DNA from: an uncultured Caulobacteraceae bacterium
GTDB taxonomy: Bacteria; Pseudomonadota; Alphaproteobacteria; Caulobacterales; TH1-2
Assembly: GCA_937967425.1 (NCBI GenBank)
Contig: CALBST010000436.1
Location: 1-26,690 of the forward strand
Length of the DNA: 26,690 nt
Direction: 5' to 3'
In this document: positions 12,061 to 26,650 of the stretch, piece after piece
Numbering within the stretch: the stretch's first letter is position 1
Layout of the letters: every line of letters begins with the position of its first letter
The notes under the pieces: model-generated
Told to the model about the DNA's origin: nothing
Seen by the model: the letters and a program-made list of their open reading frames with translations, nothing else
Database searches by the model: none
Translations under genes and position numbers: made by a program

Positions 12061-12251
12061 TGACGTGGTTGCCCGTCCCGGAATCCATTCCATCGTCCAG
12101 CGCTGGGGCGGAAGTGGGTCTGCGTGCGAAGCGGCAATCGAGGTTTTGGCCCCGGCAGGCTCGTTCGCGCCGCGATGATGAGGCGCCGCGCAATTCGTCC
12201 GTGTCCTCCCCAAGATGTTGTATCACTTGCCCGGCAGGAACGAAACAAGCT
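12061..12251. other. Region between the subtilase and cyclase-like genes
   Basis: About 190 bases if the cyclase-like gene starts at 12060. It is open in that gene's frame up to a TTG at 12213, but the residues look random and arginine/proline rich. I see no terminator or convincing promoter. The two minus-strand genes may be co-transcribed. Confidence 0.4.
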
Positions 12252-13892
12252 TCACGTCAGCAGCGCTTCGAGGCGTGGACGGGACGACAACGCTGAAGCC
12301 AGAGCCGGCGTTGTCGCCAGTGGCTCGCGGCTTTGCTTTGACATTGCCGCTGCGCGCTCGCGCGCACGCGAAACGTGGAAGCGCCAAAGCGCCTCTGCCG
12401 CAAGATCTTCGTCGAGGCTTGCCGCCTCGAACGCAGCCATGGGGTTGATCTCTGCGACCGCGTCAGCAAGCAGACGCCGCAATGGGGTGACGTGGGTGAT
12501 TGCGACTTTTGTTTGTGGCAGCAACCGATTGCTGATCTCACGCACGCGCGTATTCACCAAGGCGCCGGCATTCAGAACGCCCGCGCCCATGCCTGTGTTC
12601 GGCCAACCAGACGGCCGATGAGCCGTTGCACGAAGCGCCTCGTTAAAGAGCGTTTGAACGCTTACGCCGTTTCGATCCGCGATGGCCTTTAATCTCGCTC
12701 TCCCGCGCTTTGCCGCGACCCACAAAGCGGCGGCGCCGGCGGTGAGGGAGGCGGCGAGCGTCGTTCCTTGTTGCGCTTCAACACCTTCGTCGGACTCGTC
12801 CTCCTTGCGTTTCCGAGCGCCCCAGACGGCTTCACCGAACGCGCTCACTGTCACAGCTGAGCCCTTCGAGGTTTTTTCCCAGGGATTGTACTGGAAATCG
12901 ACAGCGGCGATCGCGGCGGCCAGACCTTGCTTTGCGAATTGTGCCGGGAAGACGACGGAGCCTATGCAATTGCCGGCAGCGCAAACGATCACCACACCGT
13001 TCGCTACAGCATAGCGCATCGCAGCTTCGACCGGCTCGATGGGCGTGAGGCCGCCGAGCGCAAAGACGATGACATCGCAGCCCCGGTTGACGGCATGCTC
13101 GATCGCAGCCGGCAAGTGCTTCTGGCGTGTGTCGATGACGGAGCGAGTGACGCGAATGGGCAGGACGCGCGCTTCCGGAGCCGCGCCGGTTACGCGCTTG
13201 TCGTCGTCGTCGGTGGCGCCGTCTTGGCTCACCGTGCCTCGGCTGGCGACAACGCTCGCCACCAACGTGCCGTGTCCAGGGTGTCTGAGCCACCCGACCG
13301 AGAACCGATCGCGCGCGTCGCTGGGCGCGTCGGTCTCCAGCAGATTGAGTTGACCATCCATTTCAATCGCGCCGGCGAGTTCGCGATGGTCGCTATAGCC
13401 GGTGTCGATCGAGGCGACGGTGACGCCCGCGCCCTTGGTTTTATCCCAGGCGTGGAGCATGCCGTGACCAACGAGCGCCCAGCCGTGCTTGGCGGGGCCG
13501 CCATTATCGCTTTCGCAGTTGCCGGAGAAGGCTAGCTCGCCGCTGCTTATGTAGGCCTCGCCCACAAGTGAATCGATCAAGACCGGCCGCGCCGAGTCCG
13601 CCCCAAAAAGGCGGCGCAGCACCCGGGCGGTCTGGAAGGCGAGTGGTTCCGTGTCTCGTGCAGTCAGCTCCGGAAACACCAATATCCAAAACCTGTTGCC
13701 TGTTTCGGCGCACAGCTTCGGCGTCATGAAGGCTGGCTGGACGAGGAAGCGAAAGCGCTTCTTGAGCGGTGACAACCGGGCGCTGATGGTCCGCCCGCCG
13801 TCGGGGAGCGTGATCGAGAATGCCGCTGCTTCGTCTGCCGCCGGGGCGGCGAGCGCCGACCATTGGTTCAGCAGGTCTTCCAGTTCGTCCAT
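12252..13892 (-). CDS. Subtilisin-family (S8) protein with Ser-to-Thr change at the catalytic position
   Basis: The ATG at 13892 has AGGTGG just upstream and gives 546 residues; the frame runs on to 13976 with only GTG/TTG starts. After about 130 residues of unassigned N-terminal domain comes a subtilase core: Asp D163 in VASIDTGYSDH, His H207 in HPGHGTLVAS, and the oxyanion Asn N308 in CAAGNC. The serine motif, normally GTSMAxP, reads GTTLAAS with T378 at the nucleophile position and Ser in place of Pro. It is either a pseudoprotease or a threonine-nucleophile variant. No signal peptide is seen, so it is probably cytoplasmic, unlike secreted subtilisins. About 130 residues follow the core. 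It lies upstream of the cyclase-like ATPase on the same strand and may be its partner. Confidence 0.9.
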   Translation of the reverse strand: MDELEDLLNQWSALAAPAADEAAAFSITLPDGGRTISARLSPLKKRFRFLVQPAFMTPKLCAETGNRFWILVFPELTARDTEPLAFQTARVLRRLFGADSARPVLIDSLVGEAYISSGELAFSGNCESDNGGPAKHGWALVGHGMLHAWDKTKGAGVTVASIDTGYSDHRELAGAIEMDGQLNLLETDAPSDARDRFSVGWLRHPGHGTLVASVVASRGTVSQDGATDDDDKRVTGAAPEARVLPIRVTRSVIDTRQKHLPAAIEHAVNRGCDVIVFALGGLTPIEPVEAAMRYAVANGVVIVCAAGNCIGSVVFPAQFAKQGLAAAIAAVDFQYNPWEKTSKGSAVTVSAFGEAVWGARKRKEDESDEGVEAQQGTTLAASLTAGAAALWVAAKRGRARLKAIADRNGVSVQTLFNEALRATAHRPSGWPNTGMGAGVLNAGALVNTRVREISNRLLPQTKVAITHVTPLRRLLADAVAEINPMAAFEAASLDEDLAAEALWRFHVSRARERAAAMSKQSREPLATTPALASALSSRPRLEALLT

Positions 13893-14250
13893 TGCACCAC
13901 CTGTCCCTGGCTGACGCGCGGAGCGAGCATCGGCGAACGCGAATTTACTTATGTCTAGAGCTGGCGGCGTCACCAATTTGGAGGATAGGGCGCGAAGATC
14001 GGCGTCTCAATCTCAACCGAGTGCGGCGGTCATGCGGTTTTGGTTCAACTGGCGATCGTCAGCAGCCGATTGAATGCGACTGCGCGCGCTAGAGATGACA
14101 AACGATGGACATGATGCAAACGCTGTCGCGAAGCGCTCTTCTTGGCGGCATCAGCGTGGTTCTCCTCGGGTGTGTGTCCCCACGAGTGTCGGCTCAGCAA
14201 TGCCCCGCTGAGGCGCGAGGCATTTGATGGCGATGTGGCGAAGTCGTGGG
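13893..14250. other. Intergenic region holding the subtilase promoter and the end of the methyltransferase operon
   Basis: About 358 bases between two minus-strand genes. It holds a 40-codon plus-strand frame described separately and a 6-bp hairpin CTCAGC / GCTGAG (14193-14198 and 14207-14212) downstream of the methyltransferase operon. No T-run follows the hairpin, so a terminator is unproven. I see no repeat or RNA gene. Confidence 0.5.
14105..14227 (+). CDS. Possible 40-residue lipoprotein-like small protein
   Basis: A short plus-strand frame begins MDMMQTLSRSALLGGISVV and continues LLGCVSPRVSAQQC. This looks like a lipoprotein signal: a few polar residues, a hydrophobic core and a lipobox-like LLGC. 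An alternative signal peptidase I site VSA-Q also exists. No Shine-Dalgarno site is seen upstream, and it stops after 40 codons. It may be a small membrane peptide, a remnant of a longer exported protein, or chance. Low confidence. Confidence 0.25.
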   Translation: MDMMQTLSRSALLGGISVVLLGCVSPRVSAQQCPAEARGI

Positions 14251-16050
14251 CTAGGTTTCGGGATCCCGATCGCAAATCCACGCAACGCGCACATGGTTAT
14301 TTCCGCCACGTCCGGTCCGTGCGGGCGCCATGCGGTGGTCGCGCACGACCCAGCCGAATTTAGCGAGCAGACGCTGCACGAGCGCCGTATCGCTCTGGTT
14401 TGACATCACGATCGCCAATCGAGCCCCGGGTCTCGCTTTCTCGGCAGCGCCTTCAATTAGCTTGCGAAGAAACGCGTAATTCTCGTCAAAGCACGACCGT
14501 TCCAGCATCGTCTTGGCTGGCTTGTTCCAGAACGGTGGATTCGAGACAATCAGGTCGAATTTGCCGTCCACATTTTCATAGACATCCGAAAGCACGATGC
14601 GCCCGCGCGCCGCGAACCCTAGACGGTCGAGATTGGTTTGGGTGTTGGCGACGGCATCCGGATTGACGTCCACGAATGTTGCGTGCTCGGCGCCGCGGCG
14701 TAGGGCAGCGATTCCCAAAACCCCTGTGCCGCAACCTATATCAACAACCCGATCACCCTGTTTGACCGGAAGCATCTGGATGAGAAAGTCGCTGGAGTGA
14801 CTGTAGCGTGGTGAGAACACGTTCGGAAACACAATGAGCTCCGCACCGTCATGCTCTACCGTGTATGCGCTCTTGTGCGAGGCGACGCGTTCTAGAAATC
14901 GCTCGACGTCGGAGATTTGTTCGCGCGTATCCTCTCGCAGAGCAACATCAGCGTGCGTCTCAGGTTGTGGGGCCCCGAGGAGAATATCCAACTCGCGCTC
15001 AAGGGCCGCGACATTGCCCGCGTGCCTGAGAACCGCTGCAGCAACGGAGTCGAGGTCGGAGAGTTCCGCTGCGGCGGGAGAGGCCATCACGCGAGCTACA
15101 ACCTGATCTGGCACGCGCGGTGGTGGCGGGGATTTGTCGCCGGCGGCAATAATGGCGCGACGAAGCAAGAGTGGCACATCGCTGAGGCGTTCGCGCAAGC
15201 TGGGCAAGTGCGCGACCTCCTCGGACACTAAATCGTAGAACTCAGGGTCACATAATCCTTGCTTGACACGCGCCGCGAGATAGTCGGTCGTCGTTACGAT
15301 GACGCGTGTTTGGGCGCTAAGGGTGCGCAGGAGGTTGGCAAGCGCAGCTTGTTCGGACAGATCGGCAGCGTCGGCGTCTGTAATTACGAGCAGATCAGCG
15401 TCACTCACATCCGGCGCGTCTTTCGCATTACGTGCGTCGATCGTCGTGAAATCGGAGGTGCGGAGACGGCTTACGTATTGGACAATAGCGTTCTTCTCGG
15501 CGTCCTCTACGCCTTGCAGCAATAACCGCCGGCGATCGCCGTACGCGAAGCGCTGGACCAGGAAGAGCGCCTGCAAGAATTGACCATGATGGCCGACAAG
15601 CCACGTGGCTGGTGTCGGCGTTAGGTAGCGCTCTACGACGCCCCAGAAATCTTCTGCGCGCTGGCCGTTCTTGTGAATGAAGTCGACGGCGCCGCGATCA
15701 AGCGCATGGCCTAAGTTGGTGTTGCGTTCAAGCGACGTCAGCATAACGATTGGAATCGTCCGGTGTGTTTCCGTCAGCCAATCGAGCATCTCGTAGCCGA
15801 GTGGCAGCGCCCCGAAATTGACGTCGAGTAAGATGAGGTCAGGGCGCGGCGTTTCTGTTCGCGCGAAATAGCCCTGGAGCGCGCTAACCGCGTACCGGCC
15901 AAGAAAGTCATCGCGGCCGGAGAAGAAGTGGAAATCAACGCCATCGCGGCCGAAACGTGCGCGGAATGCACGTTGATGGAATGCGCCATCGGCGTCGTCT
16001 GCGCCGTAGACGTCGTCGATGATCCAGATGTGGCGCTTATGCTTCTTCAT
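14251..16050 (-). CDS. Receiver / degenerate sigma54-type AAA / SAM-dependent methyltransferase fusion
   Basis: A 599-residue three-part protein. Residues 8-143 are a response-regulator receiver with acidic pair D12-D13, phospho-acceptor D76 (LILLDVNFG), T105 and K127, and about 20 extra residues after the acidic pair. Residues about 150-390 follow the layout of an NtrC-type AAA domain, ending with LPSLRERLSDVPLL and a lid HAGNVAALERELD. The Walker A position reads GVEDAEKN, so ATP binding is probably lost. Residues about 395-599 are a methyltransferase of the RsmC/PrmC-like small-domain type: FSPRY (412-416), SAM loop D437-IGCGTG, and catalytic-type N504-P-P-F. NPPF suggests amino-nitrogen methylation of a base or Gln, but the substrate is unknown. 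There is no DNA-binding helix-turn-helix. It overlaps the upstream gene by 14 bases and ends the five-gene minus operon. Confidence 0.9.
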   Translation of the reverse strand: MKKHKRHIWIIDDVYGADDADGAFHQRAFRARFGRDGVDFHFFSGRDDFLGRYAVSALQGYFARTETPRPDLILLDVNFGALPLGYEMLDWLTETHRTIPIVMLTSLERNTNLGHALDRGAVDFIHKNGQRAEDFWGVVERYLTPTPATWLVGHHGQFLQALFLVQRFAYGDRRRLLLQGVEDAEKNAIVQYVSRLRTSDFTTIDARNAKDAPDVSDADLLVITDADAADLSEQAALANLLRTLSAQTRVIVTTTDYLAARVKQGLCDPEFYDLVSEEVAHLPSLRERLSDVPLLLRRAIIAAGDKSPPPPRVPDQVVARVMASPAAAELSDLDSVAAAVLRHAGNVAALERELDILLGAPQPETHADVALREDTREQISDVERFLERVASHKSAYTVEHDGAELIVFPNVFSPRYSHSSDFLIQMLPVKQGDRVVDIGCGTGVLGIAALRRGAEHATFVDVNPDAVANTQTNLDRLGFAARGRIVLSDVYENVDGKFDLIVSNPPFWNKPAKTMLERSCFDENYAFLRKLIEGAAEKARPGARLAIVMSNQSDTALVQRLLAKFGWVVRDHRMAPARTGRGGNNHVRVAWICDRDPET

Positions 16051-17230
16051 TATGCTTAGATGTCGACATTGATCCTTTCCACAGACCTACCGGCGCTTCG
16101 CCCGGTTCTCGGTCCGAGGGACGGAGATGCTCAAACACCATACCCACGCCCGATGTTACGTCGAATACGTCCGACGTCTGGTTAAAAGAAGTCACGCCCA
16201 GGTAAACCTGAGCGTCCTTTGAGGCGAGGGGCAAAAGCTGCCTAGCCGCGTCAAGTAGCTGTGATCGACGTTTCGCAAACGGGCCCGCGCCGCTTGGGGT
16301 AAGCGGTGGCAGGTGCATCGCCACCAAATCGAATGGGCCTTTCGCAGCCGATTCGTCGAGGATCGTAACGCGTGAGGTGAGGCCATGGGTGCGCAGGTTC
16401 GCTTCGAGTCCAGCGCGCGTCGTCCCATCGGGTTCGTAGACAGTGAGACTGGTGTCTGGTCCGGAAAGGAGGGAGATCGCCAGCTCGCCAGCGCCTCCCC
16501 CGATTGCGAGCGCTCGGAGCGCATGCGTCCCGGGCGCGACCACAGCACTGCAGAGTGCACGAAGGCTTTGATCGTAGCGCGGCGAGAGAGCGCCGGCAGG
16601 CACACGCAAAACCAAGCCCTGCGTCCGCACGGTGTGTCCGGCAACACCACCGTTGACGAGACTGTTCAGTGTGTACGGGTCTTCGATGTGTGCGGCGTGA
16701 TCGATCTCGCGTCCTGCGCGTTTTAGCAGCGCAAGCGCTTCGGAGAGCCACATCGCTTTGCCAACCTCATACTCGACGATGCTTACCAACTCTTCAGCGC
16801 CGAGATTGCGCACGTAATAGGACCACGATTGTGCGCGAGGTTGCTCGATCAGCAGCAAGCAGGGGCGACTCAGGCCGATCGCCATGCCGATCTCTACAAA
16901 AGTGCCGTCGGTACGGTATGGTTCGCTGGCTCCGAACGGCAGCACAGCGAGGTAAAGATCGCACGCGCGCAGCCATGCGTTGTCCCGTTGCACCAGAGTC
17001 GTCTCGTGAACGTCCGCGCCGAAAGCCTCCGCCAAGTGAGACGAGAGAATTCCCGCTCCCTGAGTGCGCAGGAAGGCGTAAACGCGCTCGAATTTCGCGC
17101 GCAACGTTTCGTCGAAACCGATAATTTCTCCGGCATTATTGAACTTCAACGCCGCCGAAAATGGTCCACCGACGAAAACCGTGCGGTCGCTCAGTCGCGG
17201 CGCCGCGACGCCCGTGCTCGCGCGCGCCAA
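16037..17230 (-). CDS. Nucleoside 2-deoxyribosyltransferase-like domain fused to a degenerate methyltransferase
   Basis: This 397-residue protein starts at a TTG four bases behind the lipoprotein stop. The TTG is needed because the first strand (RTVFVGGPFS) follows at once. Residues 15-130 match nucleoside deoxyribosyltransferase-like folds: D91 in CDLYLAVLP, then TDGTFVEIGMA with D108 and the likely nucleophile E113. Relatives cleave or transfer N-glycosidic bonds of nucleosides, and some act on NAD-type or signal nucleotides. Residues about 200-397 resemble the methyltransferase domain of the next gene (LSPRY at 215-219), but the SAM loop reads AIGGGAG (242-248) and NPPF has become LPPL (307-310), so this half is probably inactive. 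Both genes overlap by 14 bases. I infer a catalytic plus non-catalytic methyltransferase pair, with the first domain adding nucleoside or nucleotide recognition. Confidence 0.85.
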   Translation of the reverse strand: MARASTGVAAPRLSDRTVFVGGPFSAALKFNNAGEIIGFDETLRAKFERVYAFLRTQGAGILSSHLAEAFGADVHETTLVQRDNAWLRACDLYLAVLPFGASEPYRTDGTFVEIGMAIGLSRPCLLLIEQPRAQSWSYYVRNLGAEELVSIVEYEVGKAMWLSEALALLKRAGREIDHAAHIEDPYTLNSLVNGGVAGHTVRTQGLVLRVPAGALSPRYDQSLRALCSAVVAPGTHALRALAIGGGAGELAISLLSGPDTSLTVYEPDGTTRAGLEANLRTHGLTSRVTILDESAAKGPFDLVAMHLPPLTPSGAGPFAKRRSQLLDAARQLLPLASKDAQVYLGVTSFNQTSDVFDVTSGVGMVFEHLRPSDREPGEAPVGLWKGSMSTSKHNEEA

Positions 17231-17234
17231 ACGT

Positions 17235-18239
17235 TTACTCGCCTAGGACTTCTTGCGGCGTGACCGCGCGCGGCAACAGGCCGAGGCCGGCATAAGTGTC
17301 GATCGTCGTCTGCCAACCTTCGGCGTCTTGTTGACCGGCTGTGTCGCCGATCATTTCGCATACGCGATCCCAGCTCGCAGTGACGTAGGGCCGCTCCGCT
17401 TCCATGCGCTCCGGCGTGCGATGCACTTCCTGCAAGAACGCATTCACCGCCGCTTCGCGGTTGGCGCAACCCTCGGTGTAGCCTTGCACGGCGGCAGCGG
17501 AGAGCGCCCGCATGCGGTCCGGCCGTTCCTGCATGGCGCGCGGCGAGGCGACGATATTGAGACCGTAACCATTCACGCCGTAATCCGCGAGCGGTAACTC
17601 GAACGAGGTACGGCCGTTCACGCGCCGTGCAGTGGGGTTGATCGCAAGGCGCGCCGGGCTCATTTCCGCGTAGTTCAAAACCGCATCGGCCTGCCGCTGC
17701 TCCATGAACTCGAGGTCCGAACCCACGGCATCGACGATGGTGATTCGTGAGCGGTCGAGGTTGTTTGCGCGCATAAACGCGTCGAACTCATTTTTCGTGA
17801 TCGAAGTCGGGTAGATGCCTACGCGCCGGCCATAGAGATCCTGTGGACGCGAAATGTTGTTGCCGACTGGTCCATAAACTACAGTTGAAATCCTCGGGAA
17901 GATCACCGCCAAGGATTGTGTGGCATTGCCGTTGGCGACGCCGATAACAGTTGCGCCGCCCGAAGCAGTTCCGATCGGATTTTGGCCGGCGGCCACTGCT
18001 TGGATCACCGCATTCGCACCGCGCAGCGGCACGATGTTAACGTCAAAACCTGCGCGCTCGAAAATGCCGGAGGACTTCGCGTAGTAGATGCCGAGATATG
18101 TAGGCTCAGGATCCCAATCGATTAGGAAGGGCACTTCTTCCAATCCGTTGTTGGGCTGTTGCGGGCAGCCGCCCAGCGCCAAGGTCGCCACGGCAGCTGC
18201 GGTGACGGCGCCTAACCGCGCCAGTAAGGATCTAGCCAT
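17235..18239 (-). CDS. ABC transporter substrate-binding lipoprotein, NMT1/THI5-like
   Basis: A 334-residue periplasmic binding protein. A lipoprotein signal ends in the lipobox LGGC with Cys 25. The mature part has the features of the NMT1/THI5-SsuA family: FLIDWDPEPTYLGIYYAKSSG near the start, then GANAVIQAVAAGQ, and DLYGRRVGIYPTS in the middle. Members bind thiamine pyrimidine precursors, riboflavin, sulfonates, nitrate or other small compounds. The opening DWxPxxxYxGxYxAK resembles pyrimidine-precursor and riboflavin binders more than nitrate binders, but I cannot assign a ligand. It overlaps the permease gene by eight bases and is followed four bases later by the deoxyribosyltransferase-like gene, which ties the transporter to that operon. 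Its TAA stop lies at 17235-17237. Confidence 0.92.
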   Translation of the reverse strand: MARSLLARLGAVTAAAVATLALGGCPQQPNNGLEEVPFLIDWDPEPTYLGIYYAKSSGIFERAGFDVNIVPLRGANAVIQAVAAGQNPIGTASGGATVIGVANGNATQSLAVIFPRISTVVYGPVGNNISRPQDLYGRRVGIYPTSITKNEFDAFMRANNLDRSRITIVDAVGSDLEFMEQRQADAVLNYAEMSPARLAINPTARRVNGRTSFELPLADYGVNGYGLNIVASPRAMQERPDRMRALSAAAVQGYTEGCANREAAVNAFLQEVHRTPERMEAERPYVTASWDRVCEMIGDTAGQQDAEGWQTTIDTYAGLGLLPRAVTPQEVLGE

Positions 18240-19056
18240 GTCGATATCTCCGAAGCGCCAAGTATTCTATTGCCTGAATGGCCGCAACCAGTCCGACGCC
18301 CAATGCCGCCAAGATCAAGATGGCGCAATAGGTCGATGTCGCATTTTGCCCCGCTTGGGCGCTGGCGATGAGATTGCCGAGGCCGGAACGCGTACCGCCG
18401 CCTAACATTTCTGCGAGCACCGCGCCAATGAGGGCGAACGGGACAGCGAGCTTGAACGCGCCGACCAACGTCGGAACGATGTATGGCAGGCGGCAGTAGA
18501 CAAATTCCTGATAGCGTGTCGCCCCCCAAGAACGGACCAGATCGACGTAATCTTTCCGTGTGTCGCTGATCGCGTTTAGCGTCGTCACCGCTACCGGAAA
18601 GAATGACAGTAGCGCCGCGTTGGTGATCTGCGGTCGATCGCCGACGCCCAATGCCACGACAAAAATGGGATACAGCGCTTCGCGCGGAAAGCTCTGGAAG
18701 ATGGTGAGATAGGGCTCTAGCACTGCTCGCGCCGCCTGCGAGTAGCCGAGTGTAAGGCCGACGATGAGTCCGCCGACGATGCCAATCGTTCCGCCAATTA
18801 CCGCCTTGCTCAGTGTCGCGTACGCAAAGTCCGAATAGTAGAGGCTCCACTCTGTCACCAGAGAGTGGAGCACGCGCTCAGGTGCTGGAAGCAAACCAGG
18901 CGGCGCGCCGCCGATGTGGACCGCGGCCCACCAAAGAACATAGAGAATGGCGAGGGACACCGAGTAGCGGAGCGCGACAATGATGGGACGCGCACCTTTG
19001 TTGTTCGGCGTTTCCACCCGAGCCAGGGCGGGATCGGGAAGAGTAGTGACCGTCAT
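18232..19056 (-). CDS. ABC transporter permease, nitrate/sulfonate/thiamine-precursor type
   Basis: The ATG at 19056 overlaps the ATPase stop by four bases (ATGA), which fixes the start; the frame is open to 19191. The 274-residue product has five to six hydrophobic spans, beginning at about residue 26 (SVSLAILYVLWWAAV) and including TIGIVGGLIVGLTLG and ILILAALGVGLVAAI. The cytoplasmic coupling loop has the expected form SWGATRYQEFVYCRLPYIVP. It belongs to the binding-protein-dependent permease family that partners NMT1/THI5-like binding proteins. A homodimer with the ATPase is expected in the inner membrane. Confidence 0.93.
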   Translation of the reverse strand: MTVTTLPDPALARVETPNNKGARPIIVALRYSVSLAILYVLWWAAVHIGGAPPGLLPAPERVLHSLVTEWSLYYSDFAYATLSKAVIGGTIGIVGGLIVGLTLGYSQAARAVLEPYLTIFQSFPREALYPIFVVALGVGDRPQITNAALLSFFPVAVTTLNAISDTRKDYVDLVRSWGATRYQEFVYCRLPYIVPTLVGAFKLAVPFALIGAVLAEMLGGGTRSGLGNLIASAQAGQNATSTYCAILILAALGVGLVAAIQAIEYLALRRYRHG

Positions 19057-19829
19057 GCGTTCGCCTTGGCCTTGTCGGAGTCGGACAACACATTTAGGAC
19101 GCGCGCCTCGGCATCCGGTGTATCCGAGTGCACGATCTCGGAGATCACGGCGACAGGGCCGGCCGAGGAAACAGCGGCCACGCGTCCGCAATATCTAAGT
19201 GCGTCCAGCAGATCGTGGGTCACGAACATGACGGCGGCGTTTTCCTCGCGCGCGAACGTGAAGAGCGCCTCGGCGACACTACGCTTGACGATTGGGTCCA
19301 GGCCAGTCAGCGGTTCGTCCAGCAACAGTAATTTGGGACGCGTCACGGCGGCCTGGGCGAGGCTCGCTCGTGCTCGTTGACCCCCTGAGATATTGGGCGG
19401 AAACTTGTCGGCGAAACCATCGGCGGAAAAACGCTTCAGAATGGCGAGCGCGTCGATGTTTTGGGCGCCGCGGATCTGCGCTGCTAGTTCAAGATTGCCG
19501 CGCACCGTGCGCCAGTGAAGCAGCGGAAAGCTCTGAAGCGTGCGCGCCACATTTTGGCCGAGCCACGGCGTGTCGACCTCCTTGCCCTGGAATCGTACTG
19601 TGCCGCTGATTGGCGGCAGGGACCCGGACAAGGTCGCCAGCAACGTGCTTTTGCCCGCACCCGAGCGTCCCACCATTGCGAGCACTTCGCCGGGAGCGAG
19701 TTCGAGGTGCTGGGTCCGGATCACCGGCCGGCCCGCATAGCCGCTGACGAGTTCGTTCAACTCGAACAAAAAGGGCCCCTCCGCATCACCGCCACCTTCT
19801 GACACACCAGCATCCAGCCCACCCGTCAA
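19053..19829 (-). CDS. ABC transporter ATP-binding protein
   Basis: This 258-residue ATPase drives the adjacent importer. It has Walker A GRSGAGKST (54-62), a Q-loop (RTLQSFP), signature SGGQRARASLAQA, Walker B LLLLDEPLTGLD and switch His in FVTHDL, so it should be active. The start is uncertain: 19829 is a TTG with GGAG 11 bases upstream, and a GTG at 19805 is possible. Either way the ATPase core is complete. It is the first gene of the minus operon and faces the plus operon across a short divergent region. Typical family members have about 250-260 residues. Confidence 0.92.
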   Translation of the reverse strand: MTGGLDAGVSEGGGDAEGPFLFELNELVSGYAGRPVIRTQHLELAPGEVLAMVGRSGAGKSTLLATLSGSLPPISGTVRFQGKEVDTPWLGQNVARTLQSFPLLHWRTVRGNLELAAQIRGAQNIDALAILKRFSADGFADKFPPNISGGQRARASLAQAAVTRPKLLLLDEPLTGLDPIVKRSVAEALFTFAREENAAVMFVTHDLLDALRYCGRVAAVSSAGPVAVISEIVHSDTPDAEARVLNVLSDSDKAKANA

Positions 19830-19964
19830 GTCGTGCCATGCTCCGGCTTGCGCCCTGTGGGTGTGTGGGATTTAATTCCGGTCAAAATTGAGGAGTGTGG
19901 CTAATGTGACGCTGCGTTGAAGGCGCGCAAGCTGCGGTGCGCCAGTGCAGCGAAAGGGGGGGGC
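19830..19964. promoter_or_regulatory. Divergent control region between the two right-hand operons
   Basis: About 87-135 bases, depending on which starts are used, lie between the ATPase and the large unknown gene, so both operon promoters should be here. The stretch TTTAATTCCGGTCAAAATTG (19871-19890) is AT-rich against its surroundings and has AATT at both ends, a plausible promoter or operator core. A G-run (19956-19963) gives a Shine-Dalgarno-like site for the GTG at 19965. I could not assign exact -35 and -10 boxes. Confidence 0.55.
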
Positions 19965-22472
19965 GTGGCGGACGATACGAGCGGCGTTGGCGGCGACGAG
20001 GGCCCGGAAGAAGTTGATCTGCTCGATGCGCCGCCTCGGCGCCAGAAGCCGGGGCGTCCAAGGGGAGCCAAAGGCGCCAAGCCAGATTCGCGAGATGCCG
20101 CCGGTGCTGAGGGGCGTCGCAACGCGACCCGTATCGAGACGGTTGGCAACGTCATCGAGACGGTGTTGAACCCAGCTCGCAAGCTTGGGCGCACGGAATC
20201 TTACGACATCCAAACCGCGCTCAGCGGCGCCTCGCCCGGCGAGTTGTCAACGGCGTACAAAGCGTTCGCGACGGAACTCCTGAACGCGCCGTCTGAAGAG
20301 CAGAGGCGAAGTCTAGCCGCGCGCATCCGAACCGCACTTCGCGCGTGGGACGCCATGGTCATCTGCGCGGATCTCGCTGCTGTCCGGCAGGGGTCGCGTC
20401 ATCCAATCGAAGACCGGATGCGAGCCATTACCGAGGAACCTTTTTTCTGGGATGCGCGCATCAAGTTCATAGAACTGTCTCTGTACAAGCGGAGCAAGGA
20501 CGCCAGCGGCGAAGCGGAAGTGTCCGTTCCCGATGGCTCCGCGACCCAGGAGACGCGAGCCAGGGTGGGGAGGGCTGGAAAGAAACTCACGCTCCAGCAT
20601 TGCTTTGCCGTGCGTTTGCCGAAGGATCCAGAAATGCGGGCCGCGATGCCGGTGGATGAAGACGGCAAGTACGGTCCGAAATATCGTGACCTTCTTCGGC
20701 AGTACATGCTTGATGAAGGTTCTTCAATCGACCTCGACGGACACATCACCCGCGATCCGCGTTTTGCAGCGAAGGACGCCGCCGGCGGCACCCGAGATGA
20801 CGAGGTAGATTTCGACGCCGAAGTCTACGTGTCGGAGGTTGACTCAGCGTTCGAAGTGATTGCGAGGGATGGCAAGCTCGGAAGCGACGAGAAGTTTATC
20901 GAGAACGTTGTCGAAAAGGCTTTTGGCTTCCACATCGAAAAAGAGCCCATCCTTCACTTCATGGAAGGCATCGATAAGAACTTCTCCGCGAGTGGTGAGC
21001 GCGAAGGCATCACTGCCCACATGTTCTTGGTCTACGAGCATCCCAAGGATGTGCAACGAGACTCCGATCTTGCACGGAACATCCAGTTATTGTTGCTGCG
21101 CTTCTGTGCTTATTACATGGATGACGAGGCGAGTAAGAAGGAGCAATTAGCCAAAGAGGAAGGCGCGCGCGCCAATAAGGTCGCTATTGCCGCGCAGCGT
21201 GCGCGTGAGAGCCTCCGTTCGAAAGCGAGGAGCGTCCAAGATCAGATCACCACGTTGACCGCGTTGGCAAACGACATGGAAGCTAGCATGCAGGAGAACC
21301 CGGATGTTTCGCGGTTCATCCTGTGGCTCAACGACATTGTTCCACTCTTCAAGACGGGCGAACCCTTCCCGTTGCCGGGCGTAAGTGTGGATGTACGCGG
21401 CAACCATAATTCTTGGACGCACGATCATTTGGCCGCCGCGCTGTGGGCCTACACTCGGCTCGAGCCGCCGGCTCACCTGCGTGACAATTCTAGGATGTCG
21501 CTCTCGGATCTGTGGAACGCGTCGATCCAAAATTTGGACGACGACGAGGTGCAGGCGCGCATGGAGCGCATGATTGTGCGCCGCCAGGGCGTCTTCCAGT
21601 CGATGCGTCGTGTCAAAGAACTGGACGTTCAAGACGCTTTCAAGGTGATGAAGCGATGGAACGCCAAGGCGAAGGACCTTTTCCGGGCGAGCGGCACCAA
21701 GTCGGAGTTCTTCTTCAGCCAGTTGCTCTTCTTGCTGGGCAATCGATCATTCTTGCGGGTGGAAGATAAGAACGACAAGCGGTTCGAGTTTGTCAGTCAG
21801 ACGATGGTTGAGGGGCTGATCCATTTTGCAAACAATATCGATCGCGGTCTGCACGACGACCGAATGCGTGACACGCTTAAGCTCTTTGGCGTTGAGCCTG
21901 AAATCGTGGGCGGCTTGATTAATGTGGCGATAGACGTTTCTGGCGAAGAAGATGACCGGGACGAGGAAAAAGACGCAATCGATCAACCGAACTTCTACCT
22001 CGGCCCCGAACACCTCATCGTTCGCCTCTGGCAACATGATGTTCTCTCGGCGCGCGGCGCAACTACCCGTGCCGAGGCCGCGGCAAGGGCCGGCAAAAAT
22101 CTCGCCGACCTATTGGAGAAGGTCGCCGCCAAGGAAGCTCCGTTGCCTGGTGAGAGCTCCGCCTCCCAGATGGCTCACCGAGAATGGCGAGATAATTGGA
22201 ATAAGGGCGGGCGTGAGGAGACATCATACAGTCTTGGCAAAGCGTTGGGCCTGAGCGAGACGTATCAAGTTGCAGCTGCGGAAGGCGAAGATGAGCCCTT
22301 CTTTGCGCAAGTGGGCGCCTCGGAACATTGGATGCGAACCTACATTGACGTGCCGTCGGGCGGCCGGCTCGACACCACAATCGCAATGTTGCGCTGCGAT
22401 CCTGAAAAGAACATGTTTGAGTTCCGCTTCAGGCGTAAGTCGCCAGAGGACAAGTTCAGCGCGATGAAGTAA
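19965..22472 (+). CDS. Large protein of unknown function with AT-hook-like N-terminus
   Basis: I do not recognise this family. I chose the GTG at 19965 because it follows AAAGGGGGGGGC closely; the frame opens at a TTG at 19917. The 835-residue product has an acidic start, then KPGRPRGAK (residues 28-36), an AT-hook-like motif that could bind the minor groove of DNA. The rest looks globular and mostly helical. Residues about 386-443 are charged and helical and may form a coiled coil. A His/Asn cluster NHNSWTHDH lies at 480-488, and an acidic run rich in Asp and Glu at about 660-675. There is no membrane span, Walker motif or signal peptide. It heads a four-gene operon with a receiver protein and is divergent from the ABC/methyltransferase operon. 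A sensor or scaffold role is possible but unproven. Confidence 0.82.
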   Translation: MADDTSGVGGDEGPEEVDLLDAPPRRQKPGRPRGAKGAKPDSRDAAGAEGRRNATRIETVGNVIETVLNPARKLGRTESYDIQTALSGASPGELSTAYKAFATELLNAPSEEQRRSLAARIRTALRAWDAMVICADLAAVRQGSRHPIEDRMRAITEEPFFWDARIKFIELSLYKRSKDASGEAEVSVPDGSATQETRARVGRAGKKLTLQHCFAVRLPKDPEMRAAMPVDEDGKYGPKYRDLLRQYMLDEGSSIDLDGHITRDPRFAAKDAAGGTRDDEVDFDAEVYVSEVDSAFEVIARDGKLGSDEKFIENVVEKAFGFHIEKEPILHFMEGIDKNFSASGEREGITAHMFLVYEHPKDVQRDSDLARNIQLLLLRFCAYYMDDEASKKEQLAKEEGARANKVAIAAQRARESLRSKARSVQDQITTLTALANDMEASMQENPDVSRFILWLNDIVPLFKTGEPFPLPGVSVDVRGNHNSWTHDHLAAALWAYTRLEPPAHLRDNSRMSLSDLWNASIQNLDDDEVQARMERMIVRRQGVFQSMRRVKELDVQDAFKVMKRWNAKAKDLFRASGTKSEFFFSQLLFLLGNRSFLRVEDKNDKRFEFVSQTMVEGLIHFANNIDRGLHDDRMRDTLKLFGVEPEIVGGLINVAIDVSGEEDDRDEEKDAIDQPNFYLGPEHLIVRLWQHDVLSARGATTRAEAAARAGKNLADLLEKVAAKEAPLPGESSASQMAHREWRDNWNKGGREETSYSLGKALGLSETYQVAAAEGEDEPFFAQVGASEHWMRTYIDVPSGGRLDTTIAMLRCDPEKNMFEFRFRRKSPEDKFSAMK

Positions 22473-22487
22473 CTCGGGGAGGGAAGC

Positions 22488-23612
22488 GTGCCTGCTGTAG
22501 ACGTCGTGCTGGTGGCATATGTGGAAGGCTCGCCTGGCGATCTAATCGATCCTCCCAAGAAATGGCGCGAAGTCGGCGAGGCTGACATCGCGAACTTTGA
22601 TGTGCCGGACAGCACGGTTGTCGTCCTACACCCGGGCGGAGAGGATCGGTTCCACAAATGGCTAGCCTGGGCCGCCGCACGCCGTGGGAAAGTTGCGATG
22701 TTGGCGGTGTCGAGCGACCCCGCCTCGTATCAAGTATTCCTACGTGACGCGCGCGGGAGGTACGGCGCCGACGCCCTCGACCATGTGTTTGTGATGCCCG
22801 ATGGATTGGCGATGCGCGGCCGCGAGGAAGAAGATGCGGTTGTGCGATTCCTCCGTACTCTGGCTGGCTTCGTGACCTTTGCCCAAACGCGTGAGACGCC
22901 TCTCAATGTCGTCGACGCGCCGAAGCTTTGGACGTACTTCGACGGGGCTAACACGGCCAAACGCCGGCGGATTGAGTTTCTCGCCAGCGAGGCCATGATC
23001 TTCTTGGCCGCGCGCAAGCTGGGCGCGACAAAAGCAAAGACGATAGCTCGCACCCGTAAGCGCGACTTCGATGGCGAGGCCGGTGCGCAGCGCCGGTTTC
23101 TCACGCTCGATGGCGAAGTTGGCGCGGAGGTCTTTCCCTATTCGCTGCGGCGTCACCTGATGCATCACACGACGCTGACCCAGCGTATCATCGGTGTCCT
23201 TCGGTCCGCGCACGCGACCGAACAGGAGAAAACCCAGGCGTTAGCCGCATGGAACGTGCTCGCCAGGGAATGCGAAGTGCTCTCGCAACAAGCTCTGGTG
23301 GCGCTGAACCCCGATCCGCTGGTGCGAGCCGCGATGTATCTCGCTGATCCCTGGTGGACGCCGCCACGGGAAGCCAAATTGGAGCGCGAGTCCTGGGATC
23401 AGGCTGTCGTGGAAGCAGCGGCGCTCGTGATCCAAGAGGCGAAGGCGGCCCCGCCTGCGGATGCTGTTGAGCGCGTTGACGCCTTTGTGGCCGCAAGCGC
23501 GGCGGTTGCAACGGCCTCCGGCGCCGAAGCTAAGCTCGCGGGCTTGCAGAAAGTGGCGGATCTGCTCGGCGGCGCCATGAAGGTTCGGCATGGCGCAAAA
23601 GCCGTCGCCTAA
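22488..23612 (+). CDS. Protein of unknown function, second gene of the receiver operon
   Basis: This 374-residue protein starts at a GTG with GGGGAGGG about five bases upstream, 15 bases behind the large unknown gene. The family is not recognised. The first 130 residues alternate strands and helices (VDVVLVAYVEGSPG, TVVVLHPGG, GKVAMLAVSSDP), suggesting a Rossmann-like or TOPRIM/TIR-like alpha/beta domain, but no catalytic motif can be named. The C-terminal 200 residues are Ala-rich and helical. There is no signal peptide or membrane span. Its end overlaps the receiver gene by 23 bases, so the two are probably translationally coupled. Confidence 0.8.
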   Translation: MPAVDVVLVAYVEGSPGDLIDPPKKWREVGEADIANFDVPDSTVVVLHPGGEDRFHKWLAWAAARRGKVAMLAVSSDPASYQVFLRDARGRYGADALDHVFVMPDGLAMRGREEEDAVVRFLRTLAGFVTFAQTRETPLNVVDAPKLWTYFDGANTAKRRRIEFLASEAMIFLAARKLGATKAKTIARTRKRDFDGEAGAQRRFLTLDGEVGAEVFPYSLRRHLMHHTTLTQRIIGVLRSAHATEQEKTQALAAWNVLARECEVLSQQALVALNPDPLVRAAMYLADPWWTPPREAKLERESWDQAVVEAAALVIQEAKAAPPADAVERVDAFVAASAAVATASGAEAKLAGLQKVADLLGGAMKVRHGAKAVA

Positions 23613-24204
23613 GAAGAAAGCCACTAAAAAGGCGCGCGCGAGAGCGAAGCCCCGCGCCGTCAACAGTGCGCCGAAACCAGAGCGTAAGAGCAAGCCCGAA
23701 AAGGCCGCGGCGCCTAACTTGAGCATCGTTTTGATCGACGATGAATTTGCTGCCGACGCCCAGGCCGCCCAAGGCTACAACCGAGATAACTTTCTCCGTG
23801 ACGTCGGCGACATCCGAGCTCAATGGCATTTTAGCGACGCGTTCGATTCCTTCACGGGTTTTTTCCTTGCGGAAGAGGCTTTGGCGTTCGCGAAGCGCAC
23901 GCCAAAGCCTGACCTTTTCTTGGTCGATCTGATGTTCGGAGAGAAGCGCACGCTCGGAATGGAGATAATTGTCGGGTTGCGGGAGATGTATCCGCAGGTG
24001 CCCATCGCGCTCTTGACGACGCACGGTCCGGACGATGTGGTGACGGGAGAGGCCGGGTCGACTACGATCGGCGCTTGGGTGCGCGGTGTTGGCGTGGGGT
24101 TGATCAGCAAGAACGCAATCTTCCAACCTGGAGAATTCTGGCGGCAGATCGAACCGCTGTTGAAGGGCCGTCGGCGTGCGGGGGTGCGAAGAAAGCATGC
24201 GTAA
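23590..24204 (+). CDS. Response-regulator receiver with histone H1-like basic N-terminal tail
   Basis: The 204-residue product has a 40-residue tail of Lys, Ala, Pro and Arg (KPSPKKKATKKARARAKPR) like bacterial histone H1-like proteins, then a receiver domain: acidic pair D50-D51, phospho-acceptor D113 (LFLVDLMFG), T143-T144 and K174. About 20 extra residues follow the acidic pair, and the domain ends with KN and EFW. The receiver of the methyltransferase fusion in the divergent operon shares the insert, the PDLxLxDxxFG core and the KN...FW ending. There is no output domain, so it may act on nucleic acid through the tail or on a partner. It overlaps the gene before by 23 bases and the gene after by eight. 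A partner histidine kinase is not visible in the window. Confidence 0.88.
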   Translation: MAQKPSPKKKATKKARARAKPRAVNSAPKPERKSKPEKAAAPNLSIVLIDDEFAADAQAAQGYNRDNFLRDVGDIRAQWHFSDAFDSFTGFFLAEEALAFAKRTPKPDLFLVDLMFGEKRTLGMEIIVGLREMYPQVPIALLTTHGPDDVVTGEAGSTTIGAWVRGVGVGLISKNAIFQPGEFWRQIEPLLKGRRRAGVRRKHA

Positions 24205-26596
24205 GATCATCTATTGGAGCCGCGCGCTCTCTGACGACGTGCAGGTGGATAGAGCAAAAAGAATCTTCAGCCTGTTAGAGGCGTGTGCGTCGAAGACCGA
24301 CATCGTCGTTGAGGATTGGAGCGAGTTGGCGGGCGACGCTGCATTCTTCGATCGCCTAAACCGCATGAGGTTCGATAATATCCGCGACGGTGTCATCGTC
24401 GTGATGGACAAGTGCACGCTAGCGGATTTCCGGTTCAGCCCCATTTCACTCTTCAATGTGAGAGCGCAGCACATCGAGGGGCCCGATCGGCTTGAACAGG
24501 ATCGAGTCAAACGCGGCGCGGCGACGGCGCTAATTCTGCGCAATCCAGGTGTTTGGCCAATTTTCATCAACGCCGGGAGCGCCGACGAGGTCTTCATTCT
24601 TGACGAAGAGATACGAAACAAACTTGCGAGCCTAGAGGCTGTCTTGCCGCGCGGTGACCATTTGAGGCCGCCAATGCAAGCTGATGTACTTCGGCAATTT
24701 TCGAGCTTTGTCGTCAATCAGCACTTCATTTCCGAGGCGGAACTGGAGGGGGCGGCAGCTGCTGGGGCATTGCCGCGCGCGCTGCACGCCCCCGCACTTG
24801 GTGCGTTGCCGTTGTTTGATCCAACCGGTCTGCGTACGATCGTCAAATCTCAGCTGCTTTATGAGATGCTGCTGCTGAAGTCGTCGAACGCTCCTGGGGC
24901 GGCAGGTCGCGAGCATGGCGCCACACAACGGGCGATCGCCACCTTGCTGGAACGGCTTCGTCATCCCGCTGTGGTCGCCGAGGAAGAGACCGATTTCGCC
25001 TACCTTGCCGCCTACAGCCTGTTCCGACACGGCCGGCGCGTATGGACGGTCTCGAATTTCAAGTTCTTTCGTGATGGCGTTTGGCGAGAGGACGTGGCGT
25101 GGGCCGATCCCGCCGCCGGCGGCTCCGCACTCGTCATTCGTGACTACGATCTCCGATTTGTCGACTTGCAGGCAAACGAGCAAAGCGTCGATCTTCGCAA
25201 CATAGACGACTGGCGGTGCGGCAAGGATGATGAGTCCGAGCCGATCAACGTTTGGATTAGCAACGCGTGGTGGCGCGTTTGTTCGTCTTTCTCTGCGGTA
25301 AAAACGCCAGTCGAAATCGAGGCCAAGGCCGATTACAGACGGCTGGAGAAAAACTGGCGGCTCGGCGTCTTTCTGAATCCGGTGGCAGGAAAGGGGAGAA
25401 AGAAGAGAGCCCCCAATTTCCTACGCGCCCACGACCAGAACGATCCAGGCATGGTGTTGGTCGGCGTGCAAAAGCCGATCAAGAGCGTGTTGTTCGTGAC
25501 CGATAGTATCGAGGATGCTTTCCTGCCGGCGCGCGGCACGTTGCCGCCACGGCGCGATATCTTCACGCTTGCGTACCGCACTTTGCTTGCACGCTGGAAT
25601 CTACAAGAAATCGTCAGCGGTTCGGGAAGTCGACATGCACCTCCGCCTGTCAATTTGGAAGTCGCATCGAGCTTGCTGGATCGCGTCCGGATCTTTCGCG
25701 GCACCGCCCACCCCAACGCCTCTGTTTACGCTGCTGTCATGGCGTTGGAGGCCTACGAAGTGCTGATGGGCAAGAGCAAATCGACAAGTATGGAGGCTTT
25801 GCAGCAAGTTTATCTCGCCGAAACTCAGATCGAGACCCAAGGTGTTGGGCTCTCGTCACGCATTGAGCTCTTGAGCAAAGAGCAAGACATTGAGTTCTCG
25901 CTTCGTAACTTCTTCGGCAGCAGGAAAATCGAAGAGGTCAATCGCGAACGTGACTATGCGGCGAAGATTTGGTCAGGCGTGCGCACAATGTTTCGCTCGG
26001 CAGACATGTTCCAGGCGGCGAATGAAGCCAACACTGCGGTCCTCACAAACCAAGAATGGTTCGGCGTCCGTAGATTGTTGTGGGATGCGAAAGAAGGCGC
26101 GCTTGCTCCTTTCCGCGGCGTGGCCTCTTTCTTTGGCGTTCGACGTGATGCCCCTGCTGACCGTCGGCTCACCGATCGAGCGGTCCTCGACCAGCGCCAC
26201 CTGAAGAAGAAGGGACGGATTCGGCTGCGTGTGTCGGGTCGGCAGCCGATTACGGAATGGGTGAAACGTCTAATCGCTGGAATCGCCACGGATCCCGGCG
26301 AGTGGGCGAAGGCGTTCTTTTGGTTCTGGGTGATCGCGACCGTAATCAAAGTGGTTGTGGAGGCGGCAGCGGGCTATTTTACAAAAGGCGCGCTCGTGTT
26401 TTTAAGGGAAGCGCAAACGCTATTGCAGGAGCCTGGCCTTGTGCTGATGGCGTCGCTGAGCAGTCAATTCACACAGCCGCCGACTGGACCGTGGGCGTTG
26501 ATCCTACAATTCTATCAGATTGTATTTCTCTCCATCAACACCCTGTTCATGGCGTTCTTGGTCGCCATGATCGTGCGACAGGTGACACGCGATTAG
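24197..26596 (+). CDS. C-terminally membrane-anchored protein of unknown function
   Basis: The ATG at 24197 overlaps the receiver stop in ATGCGTAA and gives 799 residues; a GTG at 24176 would add seven. I do not recognise the family. The first 130 residues alternate strands and helices (RKIIYWSR, GVIVVMDKCTLADF, TALILRNPGVWPIFIN), and a long soluble middle follows. Two hydrophobic spans lie near the C-terminus, at about 703-727 (FFWFWVIATVIKVVVEAAA) and 766-793 (ALILQFYQIVFLSINTLF and onward), and the protein ends RQVTRD. There is no signal peptide, so it is probably a large cytoplasmic domain held at the inner membrane by a hairpin. As the last gene of the operon it could be a membrane effector or a receptor for the receiver protein. 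Both roles are inference. Confidence 0.82.
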   Translation: MRKIIYWSRALSDDVQVDRAKRIFSLLEACASKTDIVVEDWSELAGDAAFFDRLNRMRFDNIRDGVIVVMDKCTLADFRFSPISLFNVRAQHIEGPDRLEQDRVKRGAATALILRNPGVWPIFINAGSADEVFILDEEIRNKLASLEAVLPRGDHLRPPMQADVLRQFSSFVVNQHFISEAELEGAAAAGALPRALHAPALGALPLFDPTGLRTIVKSQLLYEMLLLKSSNAPGAAGREHGATQRAIATLLERLRHPAVVAEEETDFAYLAAYSLFRHGRRVWTVSNFKFFRDGVWREDVAWADPAAGGSALVIRDYDLRFVDLQANEQSVDLRNIDDWRCGKDDESEPINVWISNAWWRVCSSFSAVKTPVEIEAKADYRRLEKNWRLGVFLNPVAGKGRKKRAPNFLRAHDQNDPGMVLVGVQKPIKSVLFVTDSIEDAFLPARGTLPPRRDIFTLAYRTLLARWNLQEIVSGSGSRHAPPPVNLEVASSLLDRVRIFRGTAHPNASVYAAVMALEAYEVLMGKSKSTSMEALQQVYLAETQIETQGVGLSSRIELLSKEQDIEFSLRNFFGSRKIEEVNRERDYAAKIWSGVRTMFRSADMFQAANEANTAVLTNQEWFGVRRLLWDAKEGALAPFRGVASFFGVRRDAPADRRLTDRAVLDQRHLKKKGRIRLRVSGRQPITEWVKRLIAGIATDPGEWAKAFFWFWVIATVIKVVVEAAAGYFTKGALVFLREAQTLLQEPGLVLMASLSSQFTQPPTGPWALILQFYQIVFLSINTLFMAFLVAMIVRQVTRD

Positions 26597-26628: not shown

Positions 26629-26650
26629 CGCCCGCTGTATCTGGCGGGCG
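26629..26650 (+). terminator. Possible terminator hairpin behind the plus operon
   Basis: CGCCCGC (26629-26635) and GCGGGCG (26644-26650) pair perfectly over seven bases with an eight-base loop, 32 bases after the last stop codon. No T-run follows, so it is a weak intrinsic terminator at best. Nothing else is seen from 26597 to the window end. Confidence 0.4.

Follow-up and report, generated by a model that had tools for sequence, protein, structure and literature searches.

A putative receiver-bearing methyltransferase encoded beside a CMP N-glycosidase-like protein in a divergent gene cluster of an uncultured Caulobacteraceae bacterium

In two-component signaling, an acidic pair, an acceptor Asp, a Thr and a Lys of the receiver domain take part in its phosphorylation. 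Detocs is a three-gene family that includes a receiver-only and a receiver-effector protein, and the rRNA methyltransferase RsmC carries a dead domain in tandem. We compared these and other described systems with a cluster of nine genes, g1 to g9 (Table 1), which were called as open reading frames (ORFs) over positions 14251-26596 of a 26,690-nt stretch of contig CALBST010000436.1 from an uncultured Caulobacteraceae bacterium; this whole stretch is referred to below as the window. As judged from its domains, the strongest new point of the cluster is an apparent pairing of a receiver-bearing methyltransferase (g1) with a cytidine monophosphate (CMP) N-glycosidase-like protein (g2) that holds a putatively dead sister domain. 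No receiver-methyltransferase with an N-glycosidase partner was described in the open-licence literature that we searched at title and abstract level.

Further described systems resemble single parts of the cluster. ThiY is the N-formyl-aminopyrimidine (FAMP) binder of the ThiXYZ importer. For the CMP N-glycosidase MilB, the part of PMC4081090 available to us gives the roles of residues Phe22, Arg23, Glu62, Asp78, Ser97, Gly99 and Glu103; there, Arg23 recognizes the 5-hydroxymethyl group and is in contact with the phosphate, and F-L-(G/A)-(G/A)-P-F is the motif of the MilB/BcmB type. In the available parts of PMC12345177 and PMC4081090, bacimethrin clusters contain a thymidylate synthase, an N-glycosidase, a methyltransferase and an ABC transporter, and in that of PMC11249213, the best-described Detocs effector cleaves ATP.

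The g1 methyltransferase and the g2 glycosidase-like protein

Comparison of g1 with Pfam gave matches to MTS (3.8e-25) and Response_reg (1.5e-10), together with a match to Sigma54_activ_2 (3.2e-5, 24.6 bits) that falls marginally under the cut-off of 25. Like the NtrC/ZraR-type regulators, g1 has a receiver followed by an AAA+ region, and it can be aligned with E. coli ZraR and NtrC through approximately residues 1-355. It differs from them in each of the features that mark a sigma54 activator. The Walker A motif reads GVEDAEKN in place of GESGTGKE, Walker B is degraded, the GAFTGA loop is deleted, and the end where the helix-turn-helix or DNA-binding part would stand is occupied by the methyltransferase. 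In this domain, both motifs of the MTS/PrmC-type amine methyltransferases are intact, the glycine motif for S-adenosylmethionine (DIGCGTG) and NPPFW, whereas both are lost in g2. The claim of the initial annotation that the locus encodes a catalytic and a dead methyltransferase is therefore confirmed, and the two domains share 26% identity (33.5 bits).

Among the sequences compared, the g1 methyltransferase matched best to fusions with an NDT domain, P0010 (47.1%, 214 bits) and P0009 (50.7%, 213 bits), while the best single-domain enzyme, from a Bradyrhizobium plasmid, reached 143 bits. A tblastn search of plasmids with g1 returned 111 records, none of which covered 80% of the protein, and the 20 of these 111 matches that were listed all lay within residues 338-591. 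One single-domain relative on a rhizobial plasmid (L009 9010-9807) is located about 6 kb from nifZ genes, and another (L013 7440-9690) adjoins genes annotated as aspartate kinase and nucleoside-diphosphate kinase.

The first domain of g2 matched PF05014 in Pfam (9e-8). We built a family profile from g2 and 13 relatives (14 sequences), leaving out P0005, which is 99% identical to g2. The best matches of its first half in the PDB were BcmB (4jen, 6e-17), MilB (4jem, 1.6e-15) and BlsM (5vto, 4e-15), and its second half matched MTS-type methyltransferases. The nucleoside-cleaving fold proposed earlier for g2 thus stands, and the profile refines it to the CMP/hydroxymethyl-CMP N-glycosidase type of MilB and BcmB. 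The positions of MilB were matched to the family columns by hand through the BcmB profile alignment. At the positions of Phe22, Glu62, Asp78, Ser97, Gly99 and Glu103, g2 has F, E, D, T, G and E. All 14 sequences retain the equivalents of Glu103, Asp78 and Gly99, each of the 13 with a letter at the Phe22 position has Phe, and the Glu62 position is divided evenly between Glu (7/14) and Asp (7/14). The glycosidase motif is also present in g2, as FVGGPF, with V for L.

Overall, g2 has the fold family, the GGPF motif, the catalytic Glu and the majority of the residues that bind substrate in common with MilB, BcmB and BlsM, but it differs from them in its fused dead methyltransferase, in its receiver-bearing partner and in the residue that reads the hydroxymethyl group. 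At position 23, where the hydroxymethyl-CMP type has Arg or Lys, g2 and every other sequence with a letter (13 in all) have Ser. Because of this replacement, our best guess from the residues is that the substrate would be a cytosine-type nucleotide for which the hydroxymethyl group is not required. Three plasmid records matched g2 in tblastn, in the NDT part only. The single hit in the genome collection (L001, Desulfobacula) proved to be an NDT domain standing alone, in a neighborhood unlike that of g2. Lone MilB-like NDT genes were also seen near a creatininase-family gene in two places, a cluster resembling those for polyketide synthases and non-ribosomal peptide synthetases (PKS/NRPS; L044 9218-11416, genes recognized by eye) and, on an Agrobacterium plasmid, a cluster that includes an annotated acyl-homoserine-lactone synthase (L012 8089-9504).

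The relatives of g2 bear on the origin of this pair. Ten of the 14 family members are single NDT-methyltransferase chains with an intact (N/S)PP(F/Y)W motif, which is lost in the other four (g2, P0006, P0007 and P0008). Within these four dead-type proteins, the NDT domains are 49-60% identical and the methyltransferase domains 17-26%, so that methyltransferase identity equals or exceeds NDT identity in none of six pairs; among the ten intact fusions it does so in 41 of 45. In the trees, the g1 methyltransferase groups with P0009-P0011 (support 89/88), and the NDT domains of the four dead-type proteins make up one clade (100/97), which is placed with the same three proteins (80/70). These results suggest that a P0009-like bifunctional protein was probably split, with the methyltransferase now standing behind the receiver of g1 and the copy in g2 kept as a dead partner. 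Because four clearly different dead-type proteins exist, the dead domain of g2 seems more likely to have been retained as a pseudoenzyme than to be a pseudogene of recent date. Against the split, the methyltransferase tree places the four dead domains outside every intact one (99/98) and not with P0009-P0011. Their branches are very long, and the tree program warns of false joins. As drawn, this placement does not show common ancestry with P0009-P0011, and it leaves the split neither confirmed nor excluded. Searches for fusions with query A1 (in sets of 1, 58 and 398 genomes) and with P0009 (395 and 1) gave no match spanning both domains among those listed; PF05014 alone matches in 3 of 14 control genomes.

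The two receivers and the remaining proteins

The initial annotation considered the receivers of g1 and g8 to be paralogous, with the same insert after the acidic pair and the same ending. In a pairwise alignment, residues 1-145 of g1 and g8 are 29% identical over 149 aligned columns (47.4 bits), whereas the best score against seven E. coli receivers is 29.6 bits for g1 and 26.6 bits for g8, a panel that is small and drawn from a single distant species. An eighth E. coli receiver fragment gave 11.9 bits (g1) and 10.4 bits (g8), and the best receivers in the PDB gave 24.6 and 20.2 bits, respectively. The acidic pair, acceptor Asp, Thr and Lys of a response regulator are present in both. The first acidic residue and the acceptor are 64 residues apart in g1 and 63 in g8, which in g1 amounts to approximately 20 extra residues compared with ZraR and NtrC, and the alignment shows the KN...FW ending in both proteins. 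The Pfam match of g8 to Response_reg lies under the cut-off (19 bits), and the first 44 residues of g8 contain 15 K/R against 2 D/E. Within this comparison, the g1 and g8 receivers appear to be each other's nearest kin and no closer to other receivers, which says nothing for a recent duplication; what makes the pair conspicuous is the distance of both from the E. coli panel. A pair as distant from each other as from random receivers, the outcome that would have told against the initial annotation, was not observed with this small panel.

The kinship of the receivers and the shared control region favor one unit. The alternative, that two unrelated operons merely adjoin and that the likeness of their receivers dates from an old duplication, we consider rather unlikely. 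It would agree with the absence of a second genome carrying both operons from those found, with the location of the homologues of g2, g6 and g9 in different records, and with the score itself, since PhoB and NtrC, E. coli receivers of different subfamilies, share 55.5 bits and 47.4 bits is thus not high in itself. On the other hand, it does not account for the extended segment that precedes the acceptor in both receivers, for their common KN...FW ending or for their being closer to each other than to any member of the panel, nor for the start of both operons from one short region.

The expectation of a small-molecule importer was borne out by the Pfam domains of g3 to g5 and by the structure match of g3. 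Against solved structures, g3 matched ThiY best (3ix1, 1.9e-11), its other best solved relatives being 4nmy and THI5, and all of these share a (D/N)WxP start. No sulfonate- or taurine-named chain was found among its seven PDB matches at E <=0.01. Its N-terminus contains a lipobox-like LGGC, as seen in the sequence. With a binding protein whose nearest solved structure is ThiY, a permease and an ATPase, g3 to g5 may correspond to the ThiXYZ importer, but they differ from it in their surroundings, where thiamin genes and a thiamin pyrophosphate (TPP) riboswitch are missing, and in their nearest NCBIfam models, which are under cut-off. If the likeness of g3 to ThiY holds, it and the glycosidase type of g2 would indicate 4-aminopyrimidines at either end of the operon.

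In the second operon, g6, g7 and g9 had no family at E 0.001 in Pfam, NCBIfam, PADLOC or PHROGs. In a search of 5.8 billion proteins, g6 had one relative beyond its own cluster (P0002, 45%) and g9 had one relative (P0004, 25%); this search requires shared 5-residue words and scores about 8000 candidates for each query, so distant relatives may be missed. Two C-terminal hydrophobic segments suggest that g9 may be membrane-anchored, and P0004 has three such segments at the same end. The suggestion that g6 is an AT-hook-like protein fared weakly, as the PGR core is kept in its sole relative P0002 and the rest of the motif is not. We also considered g6 as a divergent histidine kinase, from its C-terminal pattern, and rejected this candidate. 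Against a profile of seven E. coli kinases, g6 reached 0.6% probability over 13 columns with a score of 19.3, compared with 2.4% and 23.8 for the reversed control and scores of 11.1-18.1 for 20 column shuffles; this test is weak, the g6 profile being made of two sequences.

Neither g6 nor g9 had a tblastn match on plasmids, and viral contigs contained no relative in the alignments of g2, g9 or g6. The g9 profile found nothing in 395 genomes of the Desulfobacula phylum, in one further genome or in five plasmid records, and the g6 profile found nothing in 213 genomes; these genome searches were made without a positive control and show rarity at most. In 385 genomes whose class was taken as Alphaproteobacteria, likewise searched without a positive control, the g9 profile gave two weak matches at E <=0.01, neither of which was accepted. 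The first was rejected as chance since it lies in a ProA-like frame, recognized by eye, and the second lies in a 62-residue frame with two stops. The statement of the initial annotation that the cluster as a whole matches no known system was borne out in Pfam, NCBIfam and PADLOC for all nine proteins and in PHROGs for g1, g2, g6, g7 and g9.

Layout and surroundings of the cluster

The ORF coordinates agree with the proposed arrangement, in which nine closely spaced genes make up a divergent pair of operons with one short control region in common (Table 1). Five ORFs occupy 14251-19829 of the minus strand and four occupy 19917-26596 of the plus strand. Neighboring genes overlap by 14 bp (g1/g2), 8 bp (g3/g4), 4 bp (g4/g5, provided that g4 starts at ATG 19056), 23 bp (g7/g8) and 8 bp (g8/g9, provided that g9 starts at 24197), or are separated by 4 bp (g2/g3) and 15 bp (g6/g7). 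The likely start of g5 is 19829 (TTG) or 19805 (GTG) and that of g6 is GTG 19965, which is preceded by a purine-rich stretch and is also the first codon of the database version, P0001. With these choices, the starts are approximately 135-160 bp apart. A scan found five promoter-like sites, none of them inside the divergent control region, and no Rfam family was found in the window at the gathering score.

Table 1. Coordinates and predicted products of the nine genes and of the region between the two operons.
Feature	Position	Strand	Product or description	Pfam match
g1	14251..16050	-	599 aa; receiver (1-146), NtrC-type AAA+ region, MTS-type methyltransferase (~374-591)	
g2	16037..17230	-	397 aa; CMP N-glycosidase-like (NDT/PF05014) domain, degenerate methyltransferase domain	
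g3	17235..18239	-	334 aa; lipoprotein-like NMT1/THI5-type solute-binding protein	PF09084 7e-31
g4	18232..19191	-	ABC permease; start probably ATG 19056, overlapping g5 stop	PF00528 1e-22
g5	19053..19829	-	ABC ATPase	PF00005 7.4e-29
Divergent control region	19830..19964		Between both operons; from start positions	
g6	19965..22472	+	835 aa (851 from 19917); function-unassigned; basic, proline-rich N-terminus; no predicted membrane segment	
g7	22488..23612	+	374 aa; function-unassigned	
g8	23590..24204	+	204 aa; stand-alone receiver; Lys/Ala/Pro-rich basic N-terminus, basic C-terminus	
g9	24197..26596	+	799 aa; hydrophobic C-terminal segments ~710-728 and 774-792 (806-aa version numbering)	

The end of g9 lies 94 bp from that of the window, and the longest contig recorded for g9 has the same length as the window, 26,690 nt. 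The right boundary of the cluster may therefore be the end of the contig, with a missing gene possible beyond it; for the sequence cluster of g6, a longer contig of 28,852 bases is recorded. A GC-rich inverted repeat (CGCCCGC ... GCGGGCG, 26629-26650) was recognized by eye after g9 and would fit the end of an operon; it is absent from the list of the terminator scan.

All 17 main ORFs of the window were compared with Pfam, nine at E <=1 and eight at E <=0.001. A Crp-like protein of the window reached at best 38% identity in 142 genomes, and the plasmid matches of three window proteins gave a mixed picture. To the left of the cluster, a 1126-aa protein (5801-9181, plus strand), noted along with 5071-5808 (plus strand), joins a DyP-type peroxidase region to a cytochrome P450 region, and the eight plasmid matches listed of its 81 cover the peroxidase part only. 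It is followed on the minus strand by a 1011-aa protein with nucleotide cyclase, AAA_16 and TPR regions (9178-12213), which matches Pycsar cyclase models weakly, and by a subtilisin-family protease (12252-13976) that resembles type VII mycosin under the family cut-off.

Proposed mechanism and alternatives

Domain make-up, kept and lost catalytic residues, the kinship of the methyltransferases and of the receivers, and gene order were taken from the sequence; from these we infer a g1-g2 complex, its substrate, the methylation site, phospho-gating, import and any role of g6, g7 and g9. Our tentative reading, which we hold at somewhat below even confidence, is that the g1-g5 operon, controlled by a two-component relay, serves both to make and to handle a small molecule of the pyrimidine type, with the phospho-gated making of a methylated cytosine-like base. 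In this scheme, g2 would act on CMP or a closely related cytosine-type ribonucleotide, freeing the base by cleavage of the N-glycosidic bond. As the active partner of the dead methyltransferase domain of g2, g1 would methylate the base or its nucleotide, probably at an exocyclic nitrogen because g1 carries NPPFW. A kinase would provide the signal that acts on g1 and possibly on g8, and phosphorylation of the g1 receiver, passed on through the ATPase-dead NtrC-type middle region, would toggle the methyltransferase on or off. The ThiXYZ-like g3 to g5 could import the product or a related 4-aminopyrimidine. Sharing the phosphoryl donor of g1, g8 might serve as a phosphate sink or as a second output that acts on nucleic acid through its basic tails, and g6, g7 and the membrane-anchored g9 may represent the sensor side or the targets.

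Several observations weigh against this scheme. Pfam revealed a histidine-kinase domain in none of the 17 main ORFs; a cognate kinase may lie elsewhere in the genome. The same comparison revealed no thiamin gene or thymidylate synthase, and Rfam revealed no TPP riboswitch in the window at its gathering score. In NCBIfam, the best models are all far under cut-off: g3 is nearest to the SsuA sulfonate-binder subfamily (1.8e-7), g4 to SaoP, TauC and SsuC, and g5 to the nitrate and taurine ATPases, so that the ThiY reading depends on one protein. The Ser at the Arg23 position does not fix the exact nucleotide, NDT relatives without a methyltransferase exist in other clusters, and the dead methyltransferase domains are not placed with P0009-P0011. 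The shared control region and receiver kinship are the only ties of g6-g9 to g1-g5, and the structure models of g6 and g9 are uninformative (mean predicted local distance difference test scores of 39.2 and 31.7).

A Detocs-like anti-phage system is, in our estimate, distinctly improbable. In such a system, a phage-sensing relay would phosphorylate the receiver-only g8 and the receiver-effector g1, the g1-g2 complex would destroy cytosine nucleotides or modify bases, and g9 would be the membrane sensor or effector. The cluster does have a receiver-only and receiver-effector pair and a nucleotide N-glycosidase, which are parts or themes of Detocs, and g6 and g9 were very rare in the searches made. 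However, the cluster differs from Detocs in having no PNP domain or effector, and no histidine kinase was found, the right edge of the cluster being near the end of the window; by the weak test described above, g6 is not kinase-like. PADLOC models of MADS matched the methyltransferase part of g1 (mad2, 3.3e-29) and g5 (mad3, 2.3e-21), but these matches span general methyltransferase and ATPase regions only. An importer would not be expected in a defense system, yet one is encoded here beside the unassigned proteins, and the six left-hand neighbors yielded in PADLOC only the weak Pycsar-cyclase match and a TPR match.

Still less probable, in our view, is a natural-product cluster for an antivitamin or nucleobase related to bacimethrin, in which a methylated cytosine-type antimetabolite would be the product of g2 and g1, with uptake or immunity provided by the ThiY-like importer. 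An N-glycosidase of the same family as g2, a methyltransferase and an ABC transporter are common to both, and NDT relatives occur in the PKS/NRPS-like cluster recognized by eye and in the Agrobacterium plasmid cluster. Here, in contrast, thymidylate synthase, ThiD2 and thiaminase are absent from the 17 ORFs, the Arg or Lys that reads the hydroxymethyl group is absent from g2, and no exporter was seen, while the receiver control and the three unassigned proteins g6, g7 and g9 are foreign to bacimethrin clusters insofar as the available parts of the published descriptions go.

We give an equally low rating to action of the methyltransferase on RNA, as RsmC or TrmN, with g2 as a nucleotide-sensing partner only. 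The nearest solved structure to the g1 methyltransferase is RsmC (2.6e-12), and, as in RsmC, a degenerate MTS-type domain accompanies a catalytic one. In NCBIfam, g1 also has matches under cut-off to amine methyltransferases that act on tRNA, rRNA or protein, and the ends of g8 and g6 are basic. However, the two domains stand here in separate proteins that each have an extra domain, neither g1 nor g2 has an RNA-binding domain in Pfam, the closest homologues compared are glycosidase fusions, and the genes next to the single-domain rhizobial relatives bear the annotations asparagine synthetase or aspartate kinase. Detocs-like defense, antivitamin synthesis and RNA methylation each lack a defining part or direct support. 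Of the roles put forward in the initial annotation (modified-nucleotide sensing, nucleic acid modification or defense), the evidence favors neither modification of nucleic acid nor defense over small-molecule chemistry.

The phospho-gated making of a methylated cytosine-like base can be placed in a broader picture, which we regard as doubtful but possible. The cluster would represent a new kind of two-component output in which the regulator has swapped DNA binding and ATPase activity for a small-molecule methyltransferase. It would work as a split enzyme together with a CMP N-glycosidase in which the dead sister domain persists. A second, related receiver would link this enzyme to a rare, membrane-anchored set of proteins, and the whole would act as a nucleobase signaling or defense circuit gated by phosphorylation. 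If this is true, a bifunctional nucleotide-cleaving and methylating enzyme was split: a degenerate NtrC-type regulator took over the active half, and the old one lives on as a pseudoenzyme. Small-molecule methylation would then join the outputs of two-component systems, and the locus would point to an unrecognized methylated-pyrimidine metabolite.

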